Position numbers and translations under genes: made by a program. Under the pieces are notes generated by a model. The model was given only the letters and a program-made list of their open reading frames with translations, was not told the origin of the DNA and searched no databases. Of a stretch of DNA of 64,000 nt, positions 7,649 to 52,941 are shown piece after piece (within the stretch, counting starts at the first letter, position 1; every line of letters starts with the position of its first letter). Origin of the DNA: Georgenia soli. Its GTDB lineage: Bacteria; Actinomycetota; Actinomycetes; Actinomycetales; Actinomycetaceae. The DNA lies in the NCBI RefSeq assembly GCF_002563695.1, contig NZ_PDJI01000004.1, positions 1,612,001 to 1,676,000 of the forward strand, given 5' to 3'.

Positions 7649-7990
7649 TCAGGCGCTGCTGGCGGCACGGATGCGCGCGATGATGCGGGGCGGCCGCTGG
7701 GCGCGGAGCTCGGCGATGAGGTCGTCGTCCTCGCGGCGCAGCCACGCCTCCCAGTCGCGTACCTCCGGGTACCGGCGCACCAGGGCGCGCCGCTCCCGCT
7801 CGGTGAGCCCTCCCCACACCCCGAACGAGGTGTTGGAGCCGAGCGCCTCGGCCAGGCACTGCATCCGCACCGGGCAGGTGAAGCACAGCTGGCGGGCCTG
7901 CCGCTGCGCAGCCCCGCGGACGAACAGCGCGTCAGGCTCGAGCCCCGCGCACGCTGCGCCCGACGCCCATGTCTGATCCTCGTTGATCAC
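7649..7990 (-). CDS. WhiB-family iron-sulfur transcription factor (WhiB4-like by position)
   Basis: The 113-residue protein has the four WhiB cysteines (AACAGLEPD, then CFTCPVRMQC) that bind a 4Fe-4S cluster, and the GVWGGLTERERR turn before a basic C-terminus. WhiB proteins act with sigma factor region 4 and respond to redox or NO. The GTG at 7990 follows an AGGAGG Shine-Dalgarno. It is divergent from ponA, the neighbourhood of whiB4 in mycobacteria, so WhiB4 is the best guess by synteny. Confidence 0.92.
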   Translation of the reverse strand: MINEDQTWASGAACAGLEPDALFVRGAAQRQARQLCFTCPVRMQCLAEALGSNTSFGVWGGLTERERRALVRRYPEVRDWEAWLRREDDDLIAELRAQRPPRIIARIRAASSA

Positions 7991-8222
7991 CGGACCTCCT
8001 CGTTGCGACGCCCCCCGCCGCCCCGGCGGGACCGCCGGGTGAATTCGTCCACCGGTGACGTTATCCGTGATGCAGTTGACACGGAAGGGCCGTGATCGAA
8101 ACGCGACCTTGGTCCCCGCCGGGAGCAACGGTGCAGGTCGTCGCGCAGGCGGGCGCGTGGGTTCCTGCCCGGCGTGGCGTGCGCCACCACGCAGGGCTGC
8201 CGTCGGAGGGGCCACGTACCCT

Positions 8223-10676
8223 ATGCCTATGTCGTCTCCCTCGTCGGCGCCGGGGCGCGCCGTCAAGCCGATGCAGCTGCTCGTCATGCTGCTCGCCTTC
8301 CTCCTGGTCGCCGGGGTCGGCGGCGTGCTCACCGCCGGGCTGGTCATGCCCGCGGTCGGGGCGGCGGGGGCGGTCAGCCAGTCCACGACCGACCTGTTCG
8401 AGGACCTGCCGAGCGAGCTCGCCATCCCCGAGCCGTCGCAGAGCAGCCAGATCCTGGCGGCCGACGGCTCGCTGCTGGCGACGATCTACGCCGACAACCG
8501 CATCGTCGTGCCGCTGGAGGAGATGTCGCCGTACGTGCGCGACGCCGTCGTCGCGATCGAGGACCGGCGCTTCTACGACCACCGCGGGGTCGACCCGGAG
8601 GGCATGCTCCGTGCCCTGGTGAACAACCTCTCGGGCGGACCGCTCGAGGGGGCCTCCACGCTGACGCAGCAGTACGTCAAGAACGTGCTCGTCGAGGCGG
8701 GCCGCATCTCCGGCGACCCCGAGGCCATCGACGCGGCCACCGAGACGACGGTCGGCCGCAAGCTCGAGGAGGCACGCCTCGCCATCGGGCTGGAGCAGAA
8801 GGTCAGCAAGGACGACATCCTCGAGGGCTACCTCAACATCGCCCAGTTCGGTCCGTCGCAGTACGGCGTCGAGACCGCGTCGAAGTACTACTTCTCCAAG
8901 TCGGCCAAGGACCTCACCATCCCGGAGGCGGCGATGCTGGCCGGCATCACCCAGTCGCCGGCCCGTCACGACCCGGTCCGCAACCCGGAGAACGCCAAGA
9001 AGCGCCGCGACGTCGTCCTCAGGCAGATGCTCAACCAGGGCTACATCACCCAGGCCGAGTACGACGAGTCCGTGGCCCTGTCCATCGAGGACATGCTCAA
9101 CGTCTCCCCCACCCCCAACGGGTGCGCAGCGGCCGGGATCTCGGTGTACTTCTGCGAGTACGTCGTCGACGACCTTCTGCGGTCGGAGAACTGGGGCAAG
9201 GACCGGGCAGACCGGCAGCAGGCCCTGTACCGCGGCGGGCTGGTCATCCACACGACGCTCGACCCCGCCAAGCAGCAGGCCGCCTACGACTCCGTCACCG
9301 CCAACGTCCCGGTCAACGACCCGTCCAACATCAAGATGGCGCTGTCCTCGGTCGAGCCCGGGAGCGGGAAGATCCAGGCGATGGTGCAGAACACCAAGTG
9401 GGGCACCCCGTCGGCGGAGGAACCTGGCGCCACGAAGGTCAACCTCAACGTCGGCCTCACGCACGGCGGCGGCCACGGCTTCCAGTCGGGCTCCTCGTTC
9501 AAGGTCTTCACGCTCGTCCGGTGGCTGGAGACGGGCCACAGCCTGAACGACATGGTGGAGTCCACCCGGCGGTCCTACCCCCGCTCCAGCTGGAACATCT
9601 CCTGCGGCAAGTACGAGGACAACTACGAGCCCAAGAACCTCGAGAGCTCCAACGTCTCCGGCCCGCTGCCGGTCATCGAGGCCACCCGCCGCTCCGTCAA
9701 CCTCACGTTCGTCGAGATGGCCAACCAGATGGACATGTGCGACATCGTGGCCACGGCCGAGAAGATGGGCGTCCGGACGGGCTCCGGCGAGCACCTGACG
9801 CCGAACCCCGCCGCCGTCCTCGGCTCGAACACCGTCACCCCGCTGAGCCAGGCCGTCGCGTTCGCGACGCTCGCCGCGGACGGCAAGGCGTGCGACCCGA
9901 TGTCGATCACCAAGGTCACCGACCGCAACGGCAACGAGATCGCCGCGCCGCAGCCGACGTGCAAGCAGGCGATCACGCCCGAGGTCGCGCAGGGCGTCAC
10001 CCACGCTCTCCAGACCGTGGTGTCCAAGCAGCCGGGCTCGACCGGGTCGAACGCCGTCCTGCCCGACGGCCGCCCGGCCGCCGGCAAGACCGGTACCGCG
10101 AACGACGACTCCGCCGCCTGGTTCGTCGGCTACACCCGCGAGCTCGCCGCAGCGGTGTGGATGGGGTACCAGGAGGGCACCAAGTCGATGTTCGACTCGA
10201 CCATCAACGGTCAGTTCCACAAGCTGGTCTACGGCGGCAGGATCCCGGCCCCGACGTGGCGCGACTACGTCGCCAAGGCGCTCGAGGGCACCCCGCACCA
10301 GCCCTTCGCGGCTGCGCCGGCCAGTGCCCTCTTCGGCGACCGGGTCCCGGTGCCGGACGTCGCCGGGCAGAGCGCGTCGGCGGCGCAGAGCGTCCTCGAG
10401 CAGGCCGGCTTCCAGGTGCAGCTGGGCTCCCCGGTGAGCTCCGGCTGGCGGGCCGGCGCCGCCGTCGCGACGAACCCGTCCGCCGGCACCCGCGTCTCGC
10501 CGGGGACCCGCGTCACGATCATCCCCAGCGCCGGCCCCGCGCCGGCACCCGCACCCGCACCGCCGGCCCAGCAGCCCTCCGGCGGCGGCGACGGCGGCGG
10601 CGGTGGTGGCGGCAACCCGGGCCGCGGACCAAACGGCGACGGTCCTCCCGGACAGAACGACGGGGGCGACGACTGA
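8223..10676 (+). CDS. Class A penicillin-binding protein with PASTA domain
   Basis: This 817-residue bifunctional peptidoglycan synthase (PonA2-like) has a membrane anchor at about 17-45, a GT51 transglycosylase domain (EDRRFYDHRGVD with the catalytic Glu; GASTLTQQYVKN), a transpeptidase domain (SSFK nucleophile motif, SVN, and KTGTA), and one PASTA domain (VPVPDVAGQSASAAQSVLEQ). The C-terminus is a Pro/Gly-rich tail. ATG 8223 follows GGAGGG at 8205-8210; a second ATG at 8229 is possible. The downstream metallophosphoesterase frame begins at its stop codon. Confidence 0.95.
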   Translation: MPMSSPSSAPGRAVKPMQLLVMLLAFLLVAGVGGVLTAGLVMPAVGAAGAVSQSTTDLFEDLPSELAIPEPSQSSQILAADGSLLATIYADNRIVVPLEEMSPYVRDAVVAIEDRRFYDHRGVDPEGMLRALVNNLSGGPLEGASTLTQQYVKNVLVEAGRISGDPEAIDAATETTVGRKLEEARLAIGLEQKVSKDDILEGYLNIAQFGPSQYGVETASKYYFSKSAKDLTIPEAAMLAGITQSPARHDPVRNPENAKKRRDVVLRQMLNQGYITQAEYDESVALSIEDMLNVSPTPNGCAAAGISVYFCEYVVDDLLRSENWGKDRADRQQALYRGGLVIHTTLDPAKQQAAYDSVTANVPVNDPSNIKMALSSVEPGSGKIQAMVQNTKWGTPSAEEPGATKVNLNVGLTHGGGHGFQSGSSFKVFTLVRWLETGHSLNDMVESTRRSYPRSSWNISCGKYEDNYEPKNLESSNVSGPLPVIEATRRSVNLTFVEMANQMDMCDIVATAEKMGVRTGSGEHLTPNPAAVLGSNTVTPLSQAVAFATLAADGKACDPMSITKVTDRNGNEIAAPQPTCKQAITPEVAQGVTHALQTVVSKQPGSTGSNAVLPDGRPAAGKTGTANDDSAAWFVGYTRELAAAVWMGYQEGTKSMFDSTINGQFHKLVYGGRIPAPTWRDYVAKALEGTPHQPFAAAPASALFGDRVPVPDVAGQSASAAQSVLEQAGFQVQLGSPVSSGWRAGAAVATNPSAGTRVSPGTRVTIIPSAGPAPAPAPAPPAQQPSGGGDGGGGGGGNPGRGPNGDGPPGQNDGGDD

Positions 10677-27146: not shown

Positions 27147-29012
27147 ATGAGCACCACCTCCCCCGTCCCGCGCACCGACCCGAACGTGTGGCCGCCGCCC
27201 CAGTGGGAGCTGCGGCTGCGGGCCCGGGAGGTCGAGCTGCCCGAGTGGGCGGAGGACGCCCCGGACCGGGCGGTCGTGGTCGCGACCGACCGTGGCGTGC
27301 TGCAGGTGCACTCGTTCGAGGTCTCCACGGGCCGGCTCGTCCCCGCCACGGACCGGCCGCAGGGCACCACCACGTGCGCCATCGACCCGCGCGGCGCGTG
27401 GGTGTGGTGGTTCGACGACACCGACGGCGACGAGTTCGGCCGGTGGCGCCGCCAGCCGTTCGGCTCCCCGCCGGGGCAGGGCGTGCAGGACCCGATCAAC
27501 CTGCCCGACTCCTACCCCGCGGGGCTGCTGCTCGCCCGGGACGGCACCGCCGTCGTCGGCCGGACCGACGACCGCGGCACCACGGTGCACCAGGTGGTGG
27601 TCGGCGGTGCCGGCTACGGCACGGACACCCCGGTGCTGCTGTACCGCCACACCAACGACGCCGTCGCCGCGGCGCTGTCGCACGACGGCAACCTCGTGGC
27701 GGTCGAGCACTCCGAGCGCGGCGACAACCGCCGCCCCGCGCTGCGGGTGGTGCGCTCCGACACGGGTGCCGTCGTCGCCGACCTGGACGACGGCCCGGGC
27801 CGGGCGCTCAGCGCCATCGACTTCGCCCCGCTCGACGGCGACCTGCGGCTCCTGGTGGGCCACGAGCGGCGCGGCCGGTCCGAGCTCGCCGTGTGGGACC
27901 TGGGCACCGCGCTGGTGCAGGACGTGCGGCTGACCGACGGTGCCGGTGACCCGCTGCCCGGCGAGGTGACCGAGGCGTGGTGGTACCCCGGCGGGCGGGA
28001 GCTGCTGGTCGCCGTCGACCACCTCGCGCGCACGCGCCTGTACCGCCACGTCCTGGCGACCGGCACGACGACGCCGCTCGGCCCCCCGGACGGCTCCGTC
28101 GCCGAGGCCGGCCCGCGGCCCGACGGCGACGTGTGGCTGCGTTGGTCCTCCGCCGCCCAGCCGCGGCAGGTCATCTCCGCCCGCACCGGCCGCGAGGTGG
28201 TCAGCGCCGGCGGGCACCGTCCCGCCCCCTCGGTGCCGGTCCGCGACGTGTGGGCCGACGGGCCCGGCGGCCGGGTGCACGCGCTGCTGCGCGTCCCGGA
28301 GGCCGGCTCCGCCCCGTACCCCACCGTCGTCGACCTGCACGGGGGGCCGGCGTGGCACCGGTCCGACTCCTTCTCCCCCTACCTGGCGGCCTGGGTCGAC
28401 CACGGCTTCGCCGTCGTCTCGGTCAACTACCGCGGGTCCACGGGGTACGGCACCGCGTGGCGGGACGCGCTCGAGGGCCGCGTCGGGCTGACGGAGCTGG
28501 AGGACGTCGCGGCGGTGCACGACGCGCTGGTGGCCGAGGGGGTGGTGGACCCGGCGCGGTCCGTGCTCGTCGGGGCGTCGTGGGGCGGGTATCTCACCCT
28601 GCTCGGGCTGGGCACGCAGCCGGACCGGTGGGCGCTGGGGCTCGCGGACGTCCCGGTGGCGGACTACCTGACGGCGTACCACGAGGAGATGCCGGACCTG
28701 CAGGCGTTCGACCGCTCGTTGTTCGGCGGCTCACCCGAGGAGGTGCCGGACCGCTACCGGGAGTCCAGCCCGCTGACCTACGTCGACGCCGTCCGCGCGC
28801 CGGTGCTGATCACGGCGGGCCGCAACGATCCTCGGTGCCCGCTCGGGCAGATCGACTCCTACGTGGGCGCGCTGCGGGCCCGTCCCGACCACGGGGCCGC
28901 GGTCGAGCTGTACACGTACGGGGCCGGGCACGGCTCGGTCGTGGACGACGAGGAGGTCTCGCAGCTGCGCCGTCAGCTGGACTTCGTGGCCCGCCACCTG
29001 CCGACCGGCTGA
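27147..29012 (+). CDS. S9 family serine peptidase (acylaminoacyl-peptidase type)
   Basis: The 621-residue protein has an N-terminal seven-bladed propeller region and a C-terminal alpha/beta hydrolase domain. Catalytic triad: Ser in VLVGASWGGYLT (about residue 476), Asp in ITAGRNDPRCPLGQ, His in YGAGHGSV. VDLHGGPAWHRSDSF forms the oxyanion loop. It has no signal peptide and is probably a cytosolic oligopeptidase. ATG 27147 has TACGCT six bases upstream and no Shine-Dalgarno. Confidence 0.94.
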   Translation: MSTTSPVPRTDPNVWPPPQWELRLRAREVELPEWAEDAPDRAVVVATDRGVLQVHSFEVSTGRLVPATDRPQGTTTCAIDPRGAWVWWFDDTDGDEFGRWRRQPFGSPPGQGVQDPINLPDSYPAGLLLARDGTAVVGRTDDRGTTVHQVVVGGAGYGTDTPVLLYRHTNDAVAAALSHDGNLVAVEHSERGDNRRPALRVVRSDTGAVVADLDDGPGRALSAIDFAPLDGDLRLLVGHERRGRSELAVWDLGTALVQDVRLTDGAGDPLPGEVTEAWWYPGGRELLVAVDHLARTRLYRHVLATGTTTPLGPPDGSVAEAGPRPDGDVWLRWSSAAQPRQVISARTGREVVSAGGHRPAPSVPVRDVWADGPGGRVHALLRVPEAGSAPYPTVVDLHGGPAWHRSDSFSPYLAAWVDHGFAVVSVNYRGSTGYGTAWRDALEGRVGLTELEDVAAVHDALVAEGVVDPARSVLVGASWGGYLTLLGLGTQPDRWALGLADVPVADYLTAYHEEMPDLQAFDRSLFGGSPEEVPDRYRESSPLTYVDAVRAPVLITAGRNDPRCPLGQIDSYVGALRARPDHGAAVELYTYGAGHGSVVDDEEVSQLRRQLDFVARHLPTG

Positions 29013-29108
29013 GCGTCCTGCACAGTTCGTGCGGGACGGTCGGCAAGGGCACGGGAACGGCACGCCCGAGGGCAGACACAACCGCACGCGTGCTGCCATG
29101 CTTCGGCC

Positions 29109-29726
29109 ATGTCCGCGCAGCCGACGACGGCGTCAGCAAGGTGGCGAGCACTCGTGCCCCGGCCCGACGACCCGGGACTGGCACGGCTCGCCGTCCGGCT
29201 GGGCATCGTCGCGCTGGTGCTGTCCGTGGTGGTCCTTGCCGTCGCGCTGGTGCGCCCGCGCCTGGAGCCGGGTCCGGCCAGCGGGGCCGTCGGGTCGACG
29301 CTGGACGCCACGGCCGACGCGTACACGTTCACGGACCCGGACGAGGCGGCCGCCGTCTACTCCGTGCGCAACGCCGGGCTGCTGCCGGTCACCGTCCACT
29401 CCGGGCCTCTGGATGACGGCGGAGCGGCAGACGTCCTCGACGGGGCCGTCACCGATGCGGACCTGCTCACCGGGGTGGCGGTGCCGTCGCGCACCGTCCC
29501 GGCGGGCGGAGAGGTCGCGGTGCGGGTGACGGTCGAGTGGCCGCGGTGCGCCGCCTTCGCCGCCGGCTCGGGCGTCGAGCGCGCTGAGATCGCGCTCGCC
29601 ACCACCGTGCTCGGTGTGCCGGGGAGCGCCGTCGTCCAGCTCAGCCCGGCACTCGGGCTGCGCGCGACCACCCCGGTGGAGCCCGCCCACGACTGCGACG
29701 GCGTCCTCCACGTGGGCGACGGCTGA
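29109..29726 (+). CDS. Hypothetical single-pass membrane protein
   Basis: A 205-residue protein with one membrane helix at about 30-50 (VRLGIVALVLSVVVLAVALV) and an extracytoplasmic domain with alternating beta-like segments (AVYSVRNAGLLPVTVHSG; VAVRVTVEWPRCAAF). Two Cys (PRCAAF and HDCDG) could form a disulfide. No family recognised. CATGCT ends six bases before the ATG, consistent with leaderless expression. Confidence 0.75.
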   Translation: MSAQPTTASARWRALVPRPDDPGLARLAVRLGIVALVLSVVVLAVALVRPRLEPGPASGAVGSTLDATADAYTFTDPDEAAAVYSVRNAGLLPVTVHSGPLDDGGAADVLDGAVTDADLLTGVAVPSRTVPAGGEVAVRVTVEWPRCAAFAAGSGVERAEIALATTVLGVPGSAVVQLSPALGLRATTPVEPAHDCDGVLHVGDG

Positions 29727-29797
29727 CCTCTGACCCTGCCCCATCCCCACGGGCGCGCACCGTTCCCTGGGCGCGACCGGCTGTGCCCCTGCCCCCT

Positions 29798-29856
29798 CGC
29801 GAGAACGCCCTAAGTGCTCATCGGCGAGCGCGGACGGGCACTTAGGGCGTTGTCGT
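29798..29856. repeat. Palindromic element A (14-bp arms, 20-base loop)
   Basis: Arms AACGCCCTAAGTGC (29804-29817) and GCACTTAGGGCGTT (29838-29851) are perfectly complementary; the loop begins TCAT and ends CGG. Reversed, it aligns with element B at 31087-31146. It lies 66 bases after the stop of the DUF559-type gene. Confidence 0.85.
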
Positions 29857-29922
29857 GGCAGTCACGGCCGGCAGAGCTGCAGCCCCGGGCAGCTCGGCCG
29901 GTTCCCCCTCGGTGAGAGGCCA

Positions 29923-30945
29923 CTACAGGTGCCGAGCCGGCGCGGACGCCCACCTGTCCAGCGCGCGACGGACCGTCCGGGCGATCAGTCCAGGTACGGC
30001 AGCCTCACGGGCCGTGAAGCGCAGGAGGCGAGCCCCACCGTGCAGCAGGAGCAGGTCCTGACGACTTCTGTCGTGCAGCAGCGCCTTGGGGGCCTCGTGG
30101 TAGTCCCGCCCGTCGAGCTCGCCCAGCAGCCAGATGCCGCCGTCGAGACGCCACCCCATGTCGCCTCGTCCGAGCAGGATTCCGTCGCCGTCGAGAATCT
30201 CCACCTGGAGGTCGTCGGGCGGTACCCCGTGCTCGATGCAGTCCACACGGCCGAAGCTCTCGAGCGGTGACTCTGCTCGGCCGTCCGCCTCTGCCCACCA
30301 CTCGTGCGTCCGCGCCACTCCGCGTCGGCCGCGTGCAAGTGCGTGCGCGCGTTCGAGTCCCGGTCCGTCGATGAGACGACGACGCAGCATGGAGTCCATC
30401 ACCGCGACAGCGTTTCGATGCGGCAGCTCCGGCACCGCCTGCGCCAGCGCCCACTCCGGAGCTGCGACGCGGAACCCGCCCGCCAGCACGGTGCGCATAC
30501 CGGAGTCGAACTGCCTCACGACGACGCTGACAGAACCCTCGACGTCTCGTGACGGTACGTCCGTGGCCGGCGCGACGGTCGCGCGCGCGACAGGTGCCGG
30601 CGTCCTACGCCATTGAGTGCCATAGATCGCCACCTGCGACGTGTCGGTCGACGGAAGCCCTTCTGCGCCCAGCAGAGCGAGTGCCGTGGTGCCCACCGCC
30701 GCAGCCGTGGGGCCATGACGCAAGAGCCCGGTGAGCGCCGTCCTCCGCCCGCGCTCCGACCAGTCGCGAGGCTTCGTCGGGTCGACGTCGAACACGCCAC
30801 GGCACACCCGGGACCAGGTGCCGGAGCGGCACAGGCGGGTCCGGACCGGTGCGGTCAGACCGTGCGCCTCGGCCTGCCTCGCCGACACGAGGCCGCTCTG
30901 CCGCTCAGCCAGGTGGTGCAGCGATGCCGGCACGGAACGCGTCAT
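29923..30945 (-). CDS. AbiEi-like wHTH plus DUF559 (Vsr-like nuclease fold) protein
   Basis: The 340-residue protein has an N-terminal winged-helix region as in AbiEi antitoxins (HLAERQSGLVSARQAEAHGL; RLCRSGTWSRVCRGVF) and a C-terminal DUF559 domain of the PD-(D/E)XK/Vsr type (AESPLESFGRVDCIEHG, GRGDMGW, WLLGELDGRDYHE, DRSRQDLLLLHGGARLLRF). Such genes are abundant singletons in actinobacteria and their role is unknown. An upstream start at 31014 with AGGGA is also possible. It stands alone between two inversely oriented palindromes and has no cognate AbiEii-type toxin next to it. Confidence 0.85.
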   Translation of the reverse strand: MTRSVPASLHHLAERQSGLVSARQAEAHGLTAPVRTRLCRSGTWSRVCRGVFDVDPTKPRDWSERGRRTALTGLLRHGPTAAAVGTTALALLGAEGLPSTDTSQVAIYGTQWRRTPAPVARATVAPATDVPSRDVEGSVSVVVRQFDSGMRTVLAGGFRVAAPEWALAQAVPELPHRNAVAVMDSMLRRRLIDGPGLERAHALARGRRGVARTHEWWAEADGRAESPLESFGRVDCIEHGVPPDDLQVEILDGDGILLGRGDMGWRLDGGIWLLGELDGRDYHEAPKALLHDRSRQDLLLLHGGARLLRFTAREAAVPGLIARTVRRALDRWASAPARHL

Positions 30946-31086
30946 CGCCCCAGACGACCATCTCCGCACCGCCAGGAGGCCGTACCCTCGCGGCAGCTGT
31001 GGAGCGGCGGTCATCGCAGTCCCTGTGTACAACCCGCTCGCGTGGTTCGGCCTTCCTCACGTGCCGGGGCCACCCTTGCCTCAGGT

Positions 31087-31146
31087 GACGAGAACGCCCT
31101 GACTGCCCGTTCCAAGCTGGAAATGAGCAGTCAGGGTGTTCTCGCG
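31087..31146. repeat. Palindromic element B (inverse copy of A)
   Basis: Arms GAGAACGCCCTGACTGC and GCAGTCAGGGTGTTCTC (31090-31106 and 31127-31143) pair with one G-T type mismatch around a 20-base loop. In reverse orientation it matches element A over the outer ends, arms, loop start TCAT and loop end CGG. Confidence 0.85.
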
Positions 31147-31271
31147 GGTGGAGGGCGCGGCAGGGCGTTGCCGCGGCGGGTGGAGGGCGCGCCGGGGCGT
31201 CGCCGCGGCGGGCGGAGGACGCGACGGGGGCGTTGCCTCGGCGGATGAAGGGCGCGACGGGGCGTTGCCCC
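31134..31271. repeat. Minisatellite of 32-33 bp units seeded from element B
   Basis: Units of the form GGGCGTTGCCGCGGCGGGTG followed by GAGGGCGCGNCG start at 31163, 31195, 31228 and 31260 (the last partial). The first, diverged unit (31134-31162) begins inside the right arm of palindrome B. The array ends six bases before the asd stop codon. Confidence 0.8.
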
Positions 31272-31276
31272 ATCGC

Positions 31277-33859
<2,583 letters not shown>

Positions 33860-52015: not shown

Positions 52016-52840
52016 ATGAACCTGCATGACGACCTGCTCGGCGTGCGCGCCGTCGCCTTCGACGTTGACGGCACACTCGCCGGCGGCGACCACCGCGTGA
52101 GCCCGCGGACGCTGCAGGCGCTGGCCGACCTCAGGGCAGCGGGCGTCGAGCCGATCATCGTGACGGGCCGGATCGTCGGATCGGCCACCGCCATCCTCGC
52201 GGACGCCGGGATCGACGGTTACGCGGTGGCGTCCAACGGGGCGGTCGCCGTCGACACCCGGGACCCGGATCCCCTCCATGCCGCCGTCATGGATCCCGAC
52301 GAGGCACAGGCCGTCGTCGCCTTCTGCGAGGGCCGGGCGGTGGAGCCGTCGCTGTTCACGGTCGACACCATGGTCGTCGAGGAGGGCAGCGTGGTGCACG
52401 ACCTCCTCGTCCGCGCCGACCCCACCGCGCCGACCCGCGCCGTCCCCCCTGGGGAGCTGCCCTTCACCGCTGCGACGAAGGCATGCATCTTCGGTGAGCC
52501 CGCCACCCTCGACGCCCTCGACGGCGAGATCCGCGCCAAGTTCCCACGGATGGTCCGTTCGATGGACACGGCCTTCGAGATGAGCGCCGCAGGCGCCGAC
52601 AAGTGGGTCGCGCTGAGCGCCATCCTCGAGCGGATCGGCATCCCGCCGGAGCGCTGCGCCGGGATCGGCGACGGCGAGAACGACGTCGTGTGGCTCTCTC
52701 GCGTCGGTTTCCCGGTCGCCATGGGGAACGCCCGCGAGCCGGTCCGCGAGGTGGCACGGCTCGAGATCGGCCATCACGCCGACGAGGCCGTGGCAGAACT
52801 GGTCGAGGCGTTGCTCAGGGCACGCGCCGCCGCCCGGTAG
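52016..52840 (+). CDS. HAD-superfamily (Cof type) hydrolase
   Basis: A 274-residue sugar-phosphatase-like HAD protein: nucleophile motif AFDVDGTLAGG, motif II IIVTGR, and GDGENDVVWLSRVG. The cap domain is type IIB. The last 12 bases of the gene, including the TAG stop, are the first unit of a tandem repeat. Substrate unknown. Confidence 0.92.
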   Translation: MNLHDDLLGVRAVAFDVDGTLAGGDHRVSPRTLQALADLRAAGVEPIIVTGRIVGSATAILADAGIDGYAVASNGAVAVDTRDPDPLHAAVMDPDEAQAVVAFCEGRAVEPSLFTVDTMVVEEGSVVHDLLVRADPTAPTRAVPPGELPFTAATKACIFGEPATLDALDGEIRAKFPRMVRSMDTAFEMSAAGADKWVALSAILERIGIPPERCAGIGDGENDVVWLSRVGFPVAMGNAREPVREVARLEIGHHADEAVAELVEALLRARAAAR

Positions 52841-52941
52841 CTCGTCGCTCGGCGCGAGCCGCCCGGTAACTCGCCGCTCGGGGCGCGAGCCGCCCGATAG
52901 CTCGGCGTTCGGGGCGCGAGCCGCCCGATAGCTCGGCGTTC
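52829..52941. repeat. Four tandem 31-bp units starting in the HAD gene end
   Basis: Units begin at 52829 (29 bp), 52858, 52889 and 52920 (partial) and follow the form GCCGCCCGATAGCTCGGCG then TTCGGGGCGCGA. The TAG in the first unit is the HAD stop codon. Confidence 0.85.

Follow-up and report, generated by a model that had tools for sequence, protein, structure and literature searches.

A solitary AbiEi-like nuclease gene lies between two copies of a dispersed palindrome in a high-GC actinobacterium

Results

Architecture of the locus

The window, by which we mean the whole stretch of 64,000 nucleotides analysed, belongs to the 4.27 Mb genome of a high-GC actinobacterium (G000), probably Georgenia-like to judge from its closest named homologues. 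Only one reading frame sits between the palindromes A and B (Table 1), and it encodes an AbiEi-like wHTH joined to a DUF559/EDxHD-type nuclease half. The adjoining genes are asd (semialdehyde dehydrogenase) and a 205-codon gene without Pfam match; the GC3 of the nuclease gene is 0.80, compared with 0.91-0.99 in the adjoining gene calls. Low model confidence at residues 1-30 of the predicted structure, together with an ATG at residue 30, suggests that the true start is at about 30945.

Table 1. Features of the locus, with positions in the window.
Feature	Position	Strand	Remarks
Palindrome A	29800..29855	none	56 bp; family member G000:C4:1641805-1641850; flanked by 29109-29726 (+) and the nuclease gene (-)
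Solitary gene, AbiEi-like wHTH + DUF559/EDxHD-type nuclease	29923..31032	-	369 codons from TTG 31032; likely true start ATG ~30945
Palindrome B	31089..31144	none	56 bp; copy of A in inverted orientation; downstream of asd and upstream of the nuclease gene
Minisatellite	31144..31269	none	32-bp unit, 3.9 copies; first base is the last base of B

In the protein, AbiEi_4 (PF13338) is the sole Pfam match. The DUF559/Vsr-type nuclease half was recognised via alignment with relatives and via its fold, the best match of the predicted structure being a Vsr-like homing-endonuclease fold; the match to 3r3p comes from a second comparison with VIA-align and is absent among the 50 matches listed by Foldseek. 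Residues of the nuclease half are invariant across the aligned relatives, and acidic and His residues are conserved. Among the neighbours in the window no AbiEii nucleotidyltransferase toxin gene lies beside the nuclease gene, and no Rfam intron was found in 28800-32200, the gene being intergenic between asd and the 205-codon gene. A search for the Y1 transposase (PF01797), which was positive in 5 of 14 genomes as a control, gave 0 matches in the whole G000 genome.

The initial annotation described the gene as bounded by two inversely oriented copies of one palindrome with a 20-base loop, and both points hold. A and B each consist of outer arms paired around a 20-base middle, and their best local match, 83% over 29 nt, is in inverted orientation (whole-length alignment score 29 inverted vs 19 direct). 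The RNA folds of the plus strand have z values of -5.5 and -5.9, with none of 200 shuffles as good. The pattern GAACGCCCT-N20..50-AGGG has 2 matches in the window vs 0.06 expected, and CGAGAACGCCCTAAGTGC gives example letters of the window copies. A is placed between convergent 3' ends, those of 29109-29726 (+) and of the nuclease gene (-).

The palindromes belong to a dispersed family

Using the family pattern with up to 3 mismatches, we found 16 places in G000 and none with the reversed control. One decayed member brings the family to 17 copies, 15 of them besides A and B, so the palindromes are not unique to the locus. The length of the copies is constant at 56 bp. We aligned 22 of the 25 known copies, 16 from G000 and 6 from the sister species G001, leaving out L065, L068 and L069; the aligned copies open with GA[GC][AC]A[CT]GCCC and the terminal GTAG is absent. 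Paired changes in the two arms fill 37 double-change cells compared with 16.8 +/- 3.5 in shuffles (0 of 500 as high), a count that kinship among sequences can push above such shuffles. When the partner was slid by 1 to 3 columns, 3-14 double-change cells were left.

The copies in G000 are distributed over 10 convergent, 3 tandem and 2 divergent settings and two positions inside genes, one convergent copy overlapping a called gene end by 12 bp. Based on our own gene calls, 10 of the 15 intergenic copies are thus convergent, against 60 of the 267 intergenic regions of the same stretches (p 3e-4). Every one of the 23 G000 half-sites that have no more than 1 mismatch lies inside a palindrome, and an autonomous element sharing the terminal repeats of the palindrome, as sought in a MITE test, was not found in this genome. 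Half-sites with 2-3 mismatches exist outside palindromes and are chance-like (13 in the reversed control at up to 3).

Both copies inside genes could be compared with G001. The palindrome at L061 (~9995-10050) lies in frame within a DEAD/DEAH helicase gene, in G000 and not in G001; the gene is 51 nt longer in G000, where the alignment splits the gap, so that its ends are approximate. Both species carry the second copy (L060 ~9995-10050; L068 ~7940-7995) within an ABC-transporter gene. A further palindrome family (GGTAAGTGCTCCTG...) was seen in G000 and G001, at L064:5522 and at L078, the orthologue of the L063 site.

Occupied and empty sites in related species

At up to 2 mismatches, the family occurs in 2 of 59 genomes, G000 (16) and G001 (4), and in none of seven other species of the genus or 50 more distant genomes; with a looser pattern, 8 sites are found in G001. 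Scans of a species-genome collection and of viral contigs for the family gave nothing relevant. Orthologues of asd are present in 9 of 9 species of the genus, including that of the window. Of the eight other species, G001 alone has fragments of the DUF559 gene together with a family palindrome where B lies. G000 and G001 are thus the only genomes found to share family and gene at the locus, and among the 59 genomes, at up to 2 mismatches, the palindromes were not found equally often without the gene. In G001 the gene is broken, with pieces in different frames and parts missing, and the family palindromes persist. The palindrome at the site of B shows compensated arm changes in this sister-species comparison. 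In G004, the interval of about 110 bp that separates asd from a relative of the 205-codon gene contains no nuclease gene and no palindrome, which makes it a candidate empty site.

G001 carries a family palindrome at the orthologous position for four of the 17 G000 sites (B, L025, L060, L064) and lacks one for eight (L020, L021, L026, L027, L059, L061, L062, L063). A has at best a short remnant, a 12-nt match that we do not rely upon. At L024 and L065 one flank is displaced in G001 and only one is cleanly aligned; for L022 and L023 the orthologous flank was not found in G001. Conversely, four of the eight G001 sites are absent from G000. Some empty sister sites hold another hairpin in the gap (L071, L073, L082, L083). 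The comparison of the two sisters, made without an outgroup, is equally compatible with gain and with loss.

Tandem arrays adjoin the palindromes

The minisatellite of the window had been described as starting inside B. It does adjoin B, but begins at the last base of the palindrome. An array (period of at least 12) lies within 40 bp of 14 of the 25 family palindromes of G000 and G001, compared with 20 of 125 control intergenic centres (Fisher p 6e-5), and several arrays, including the one at B, start or stop a few bases from the palindrome edge. Arrays that abut palindromes were observed at L022:9909-10006, at L020:9892-9996 and at 31144-31269 of the window. Half-sites 29 bp apart at L022 repeat the left arm of the palindrome itself. 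Recurrent breaks or slippage at the palindromes may lie behind the adjoining arrays. A second minisatellite (31-bp unit, 3.6 copies, 90% matches) was noted at 52829-52938 of the window.

Related genes are flanked by palindromes of their own

Relatives were sought in 396 genomes of the order; at least 46 genomes matched at E <= 1e-25, and at most five candidates were scored per genome. All 86 listed matches were examined, including the locus of the window and L113, which is cut by a contig end. A palindrome was counted with a score of at least 15 and a span of at least 44 within 250 bp of the gene. The hairpin scorer and the gene caller were made by us, the latter trained on the genome of the window; gene limits came from tblastn for the DUF559 genes and from the gene caller for the controls.

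Palindromes were found on both sides of 26 loci, on one side of 33 and on neither side of 27, whereas 620 control genes in 800 kb of two surveyed genomes gave 2, 60 and 558 (both-sided, Fisher p 1e-23). The thresholds were set after the first 49 loci had been viewed under looser settings; the 36 loci fetched last, with the thresholds already in use, gave 11, 13 and 12. With one locus per ortholog cluster and a third control genome, the counts are 21/27/26 of 74 vs 5/85/808 of 898 (both/one/none), and the excess holds at three other thresholds too. Hence the association of gene and palindrome is established by count.

In 26 of 26 two-sided loci the flanking palindromes are copies of each other, while the two both-sided controls of the 620-gene set carry unrelated hairpins on the two sides (likeness was compared for these 2 of the 5 both-sided controls of the enlarged set). 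Inverse orientation, part of the original description, is not general: 8 pairs are inverted, 15 direct and 3 are ties. The units measure 1106-1370 bp with a median palindrome span of 59.5 bp, and their letters vary by lineage, with CGAACGCTGAGTTGTTCGGCGTTC in L087 and CGAGCGTCTCTGTTTCTCAGG in L112 next to those of the window.

Six of 13 weaker same-genus matches have palindromes of score >= 13 in the examined flanks. The genome of the window contains a second AbiEi/DUF559-type gene of 311 codons (L030:1318-2253, minus strand; G000:C4 ~1177388). It is flanked by two copies of another palindrome (GGTGCACGTTCC...), at 1233-1294 and 2416-2475, which is independent of the A/B family. L029, the other weak paralogue in G000, has no palindrome in the examined flanks.

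Dispersed copies of the gene-flanking palindromes were found in three of the four genomes examined. A 400 kb sample from one contig of G043 contains two clear copies and one weaker copy (score 22) from two gene-flanking families, and an equal sample from one contig of G136 contains two clear copies of the L087 family. In G077, represented by 400 kb sampled from a whole chromosome, no copy of its own gene-flanking families was found. We also observed eight copies of a palindrome family containing GTTGTGGGC in the 400 kb of G077 (L136, L138, L140, L145, L147, L151), and the family again in G043 (L166). Both neighbours were called for five G077 copies, and four of these sit between convergent genes. 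A second enzyme behind these palindromes was considered and rejected, as no gene lies between two copies in the sampled stretches.

Enzyme and palindrome distances are correlated (Mantel r 0.40, 0 of 1000 permutations). Of 17 hand-picked close pairs, 15 are at one shared site with flanking genes common on both sides, so that the gene looks resident and the correlation partly reflects vertical descent.

Discussion

Considering the genome of the window alone, terminators were favoured, because 15 of the 17 copies are away from the nuclease gene. An ordinary terminator pair around an unrelated gene was indeed what we expected at first, and it was rejected in view of the survey of 86 loci. We consider it most probable (about 0.58) that the palindromes are spread or maintained by a nuclease specific to them, in a manner similar to REP/RAYT but with an unrelated enzyme. 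The locus would then represent a resident palindrome-nuclease unit, in which a single gene is enclosed by two copies of its matched palindrome. A dimer might bind the 56-60 bp palindrome with one wHTH per arm and might nick or cut it, or the cruciform or hairpin that it forms. Repair or re-integration after cutting could seed copies at exposed intergenic sites and keep the copies alike, the palindromes depending on the nuclease as non-autonomous passengers, just as REPs depend on RAYTs. We infer binding, cutting and mobilisation, as well as cutting as the cause of the spread. A resident enzyme with spreading palindromes fits better than a hopping gene, given the shared flanks, the mixed likeness within pairs and the variable orientation. 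Several findings stand against this explanation: 27 of the 86 loci have no palindrome at the threshold, the palindromes of G001 outlast the broken gene, the orientation of the pairs is variable, G077 has 0 copies in 400 kb, and L029 is without palindrome. Furthermore, the 10 of 15 convergent intergenic copies are terminator-like, and other hairpins occupy several of the empty sister sites.

Alternatively, the AbiEi-like half may repress its own gene via the upstream palindrome while the downstream copy terminates transcription, the scattered copies being a small regulon or decoys and no mobilisation taking place. Those AbiEi antitoxins that have been characterised autoregulate by binding promoter inverted repeats (PMC7319586), and the upstream palindromes lie close before the gene, with many scattered copies at convergent 3' ends. 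An operator needs no downstream copy, yet the one-sided loci comprise 18 with the downstream copy only and 15 with the upstream copy only. Divergent settings, moreover, are rare (2 of 15 intergenic copies vs 77 of 267 intergenic regions overall), two copies are inside genes, and the invariant residues of the nuclease half are not required by regulation alone. We therefore regard purely regulatory palindromes as unlikely.

It has also to be considered that hairpins or terminators spread independently and that the nuclease gene merely settles among them, because they are safe sites or because its insertion duplicates the palindrome. The abundant GTTGTGGGC family, which has no adjoining nuclease gene in the sampled stretches of G077, and the palindromes that persist beside the dead gene in G001 are compatible with such a bystander. 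Quasi-palindromes can self-correct by template switching, which would imitate covariation. On the other hand, in each of the 26 two-sided loci the flanking palindromes are copies of each other, and paralogues within the single genome G043 carry different palindromes (L097, L119, L125, L205). In the orthologous loci L112, L119 and L180, the likeness of the pair within a genome is 43-51 compared with 14-39 to the palindromes of the orthologues; the opposite is seen at L102/L128, and other ortholog groups give a mixed picture. Taken together, a gene that is only a bystander appears quite improbable.

Two ordinary bidirectional terminators around one gene by chance are very improbable: the convergent excess and the other hairpin that the sister species has in the same gap at some sites agree with terminators, but the family has a fixed length and shared letters, while most other strong hairpins of the window and of sampled G000 stretches have short loops and unrelated letters, two copies are inside genes, and the association is seen again in other genera, where the letters differ.

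Solitary AbiEi-nuclease genes are common and unexplained in actinobacteria. If palindrome-specific nucleases of the kind favoured here are general, these genes would drive a separate class of bacterial palindromic mobile DNA, without kinship to RAYT/REP. Each nuclease would recognise, cut and multiply its own 56-60 bp palindrome, coding copies included, and many anonymous high-GC palindromes would be their footprints; we give this extension even odds. If true, a palindrome family is driven by genes that often bear the names of toxin-antitoxin parts and that were found, under a strict cut-off, in at least 46 of the 396 genomes searched in the order. Since each gene names its own candidate substrate, the origin and spread of bacterial palindromic repeats would become directly testable. 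For annotation, such genes should not be named antitoxins on the N-terminal domain alone. In the open-access literature we found no description of the pairing of AbiEi/DUF559 genes with palindromes; subscription papers and most preprints were outside the scope of this search.

Palindromes between and inside genes are also known as the Rickettsia palindromic elements and the CGTC REPs; the Rickettsia elements inside genes have an in-frame habit. Unlike in these families, a candidate dedicated enzyme adjoins the palindromes here, and the letters are unrelated. The protein shares an AbiEi-type wHTH with the AbiEi antitoxins of type IV toxin-antitoxin systems, but has no adjacent AbiEii gene, its C-terminal half is a nuclease domain, and the palindromes are dispersed. 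With the EDxHD/Vsr-like homing endonucleases such as I-Bth0305I it shares the predicted Vsr-like catalytic fold; in contrast, the gene is intergenic between palindromes, with no intron detected and an AbiEi-type N-terminal half.

The closest parallel is given by the REPtrons, in which a REP-associated tyrosine transposase (RAYT) is encoded between two copies of a dispersed palindrome. Passages of two reports describe one enzyme gene between two palindrome copies that are also scattered between other genes, palindromes that follow the enzyme lineage, complementary arm changes and occasional copies inside genes (PMC2817692, PMC3733652). In the unit studied here the enzyme gene likewise lies between two copies of a dispersed palindrome, the palindromes may go with the enzyme lineage, the arms show complementary changes and some copies are in genes. 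The differences are that the enzyme is an AbiEi-wHTH with a Vsr-like nuclease instead of an HUH Y1 transposase, that the palindromes of about 56-60 bp lack the terminal GTAG tag, that the two copies are not consistently inverted and that the copy number is low (17). As Y1 transposase and GTAG tag are missing and the inverted pair is not a constant feature, the unit is not a RAYT. The initial annotation likened it to a REP/RAYT unit in which a Vsr-fold protein replaces the Y1 transposase, and this likeness is supported by the Vsr-like best fold match, by the two-sided loci (26 of 86 vs 2 of 620) and by a genome in which no Y1 transposase was found. Hence, the comparison may be apt as to how the unit works, and the REP/RAYT problem would then have been solved a second time, independently, with a homing-type nuclease instead of the HUH transposase.
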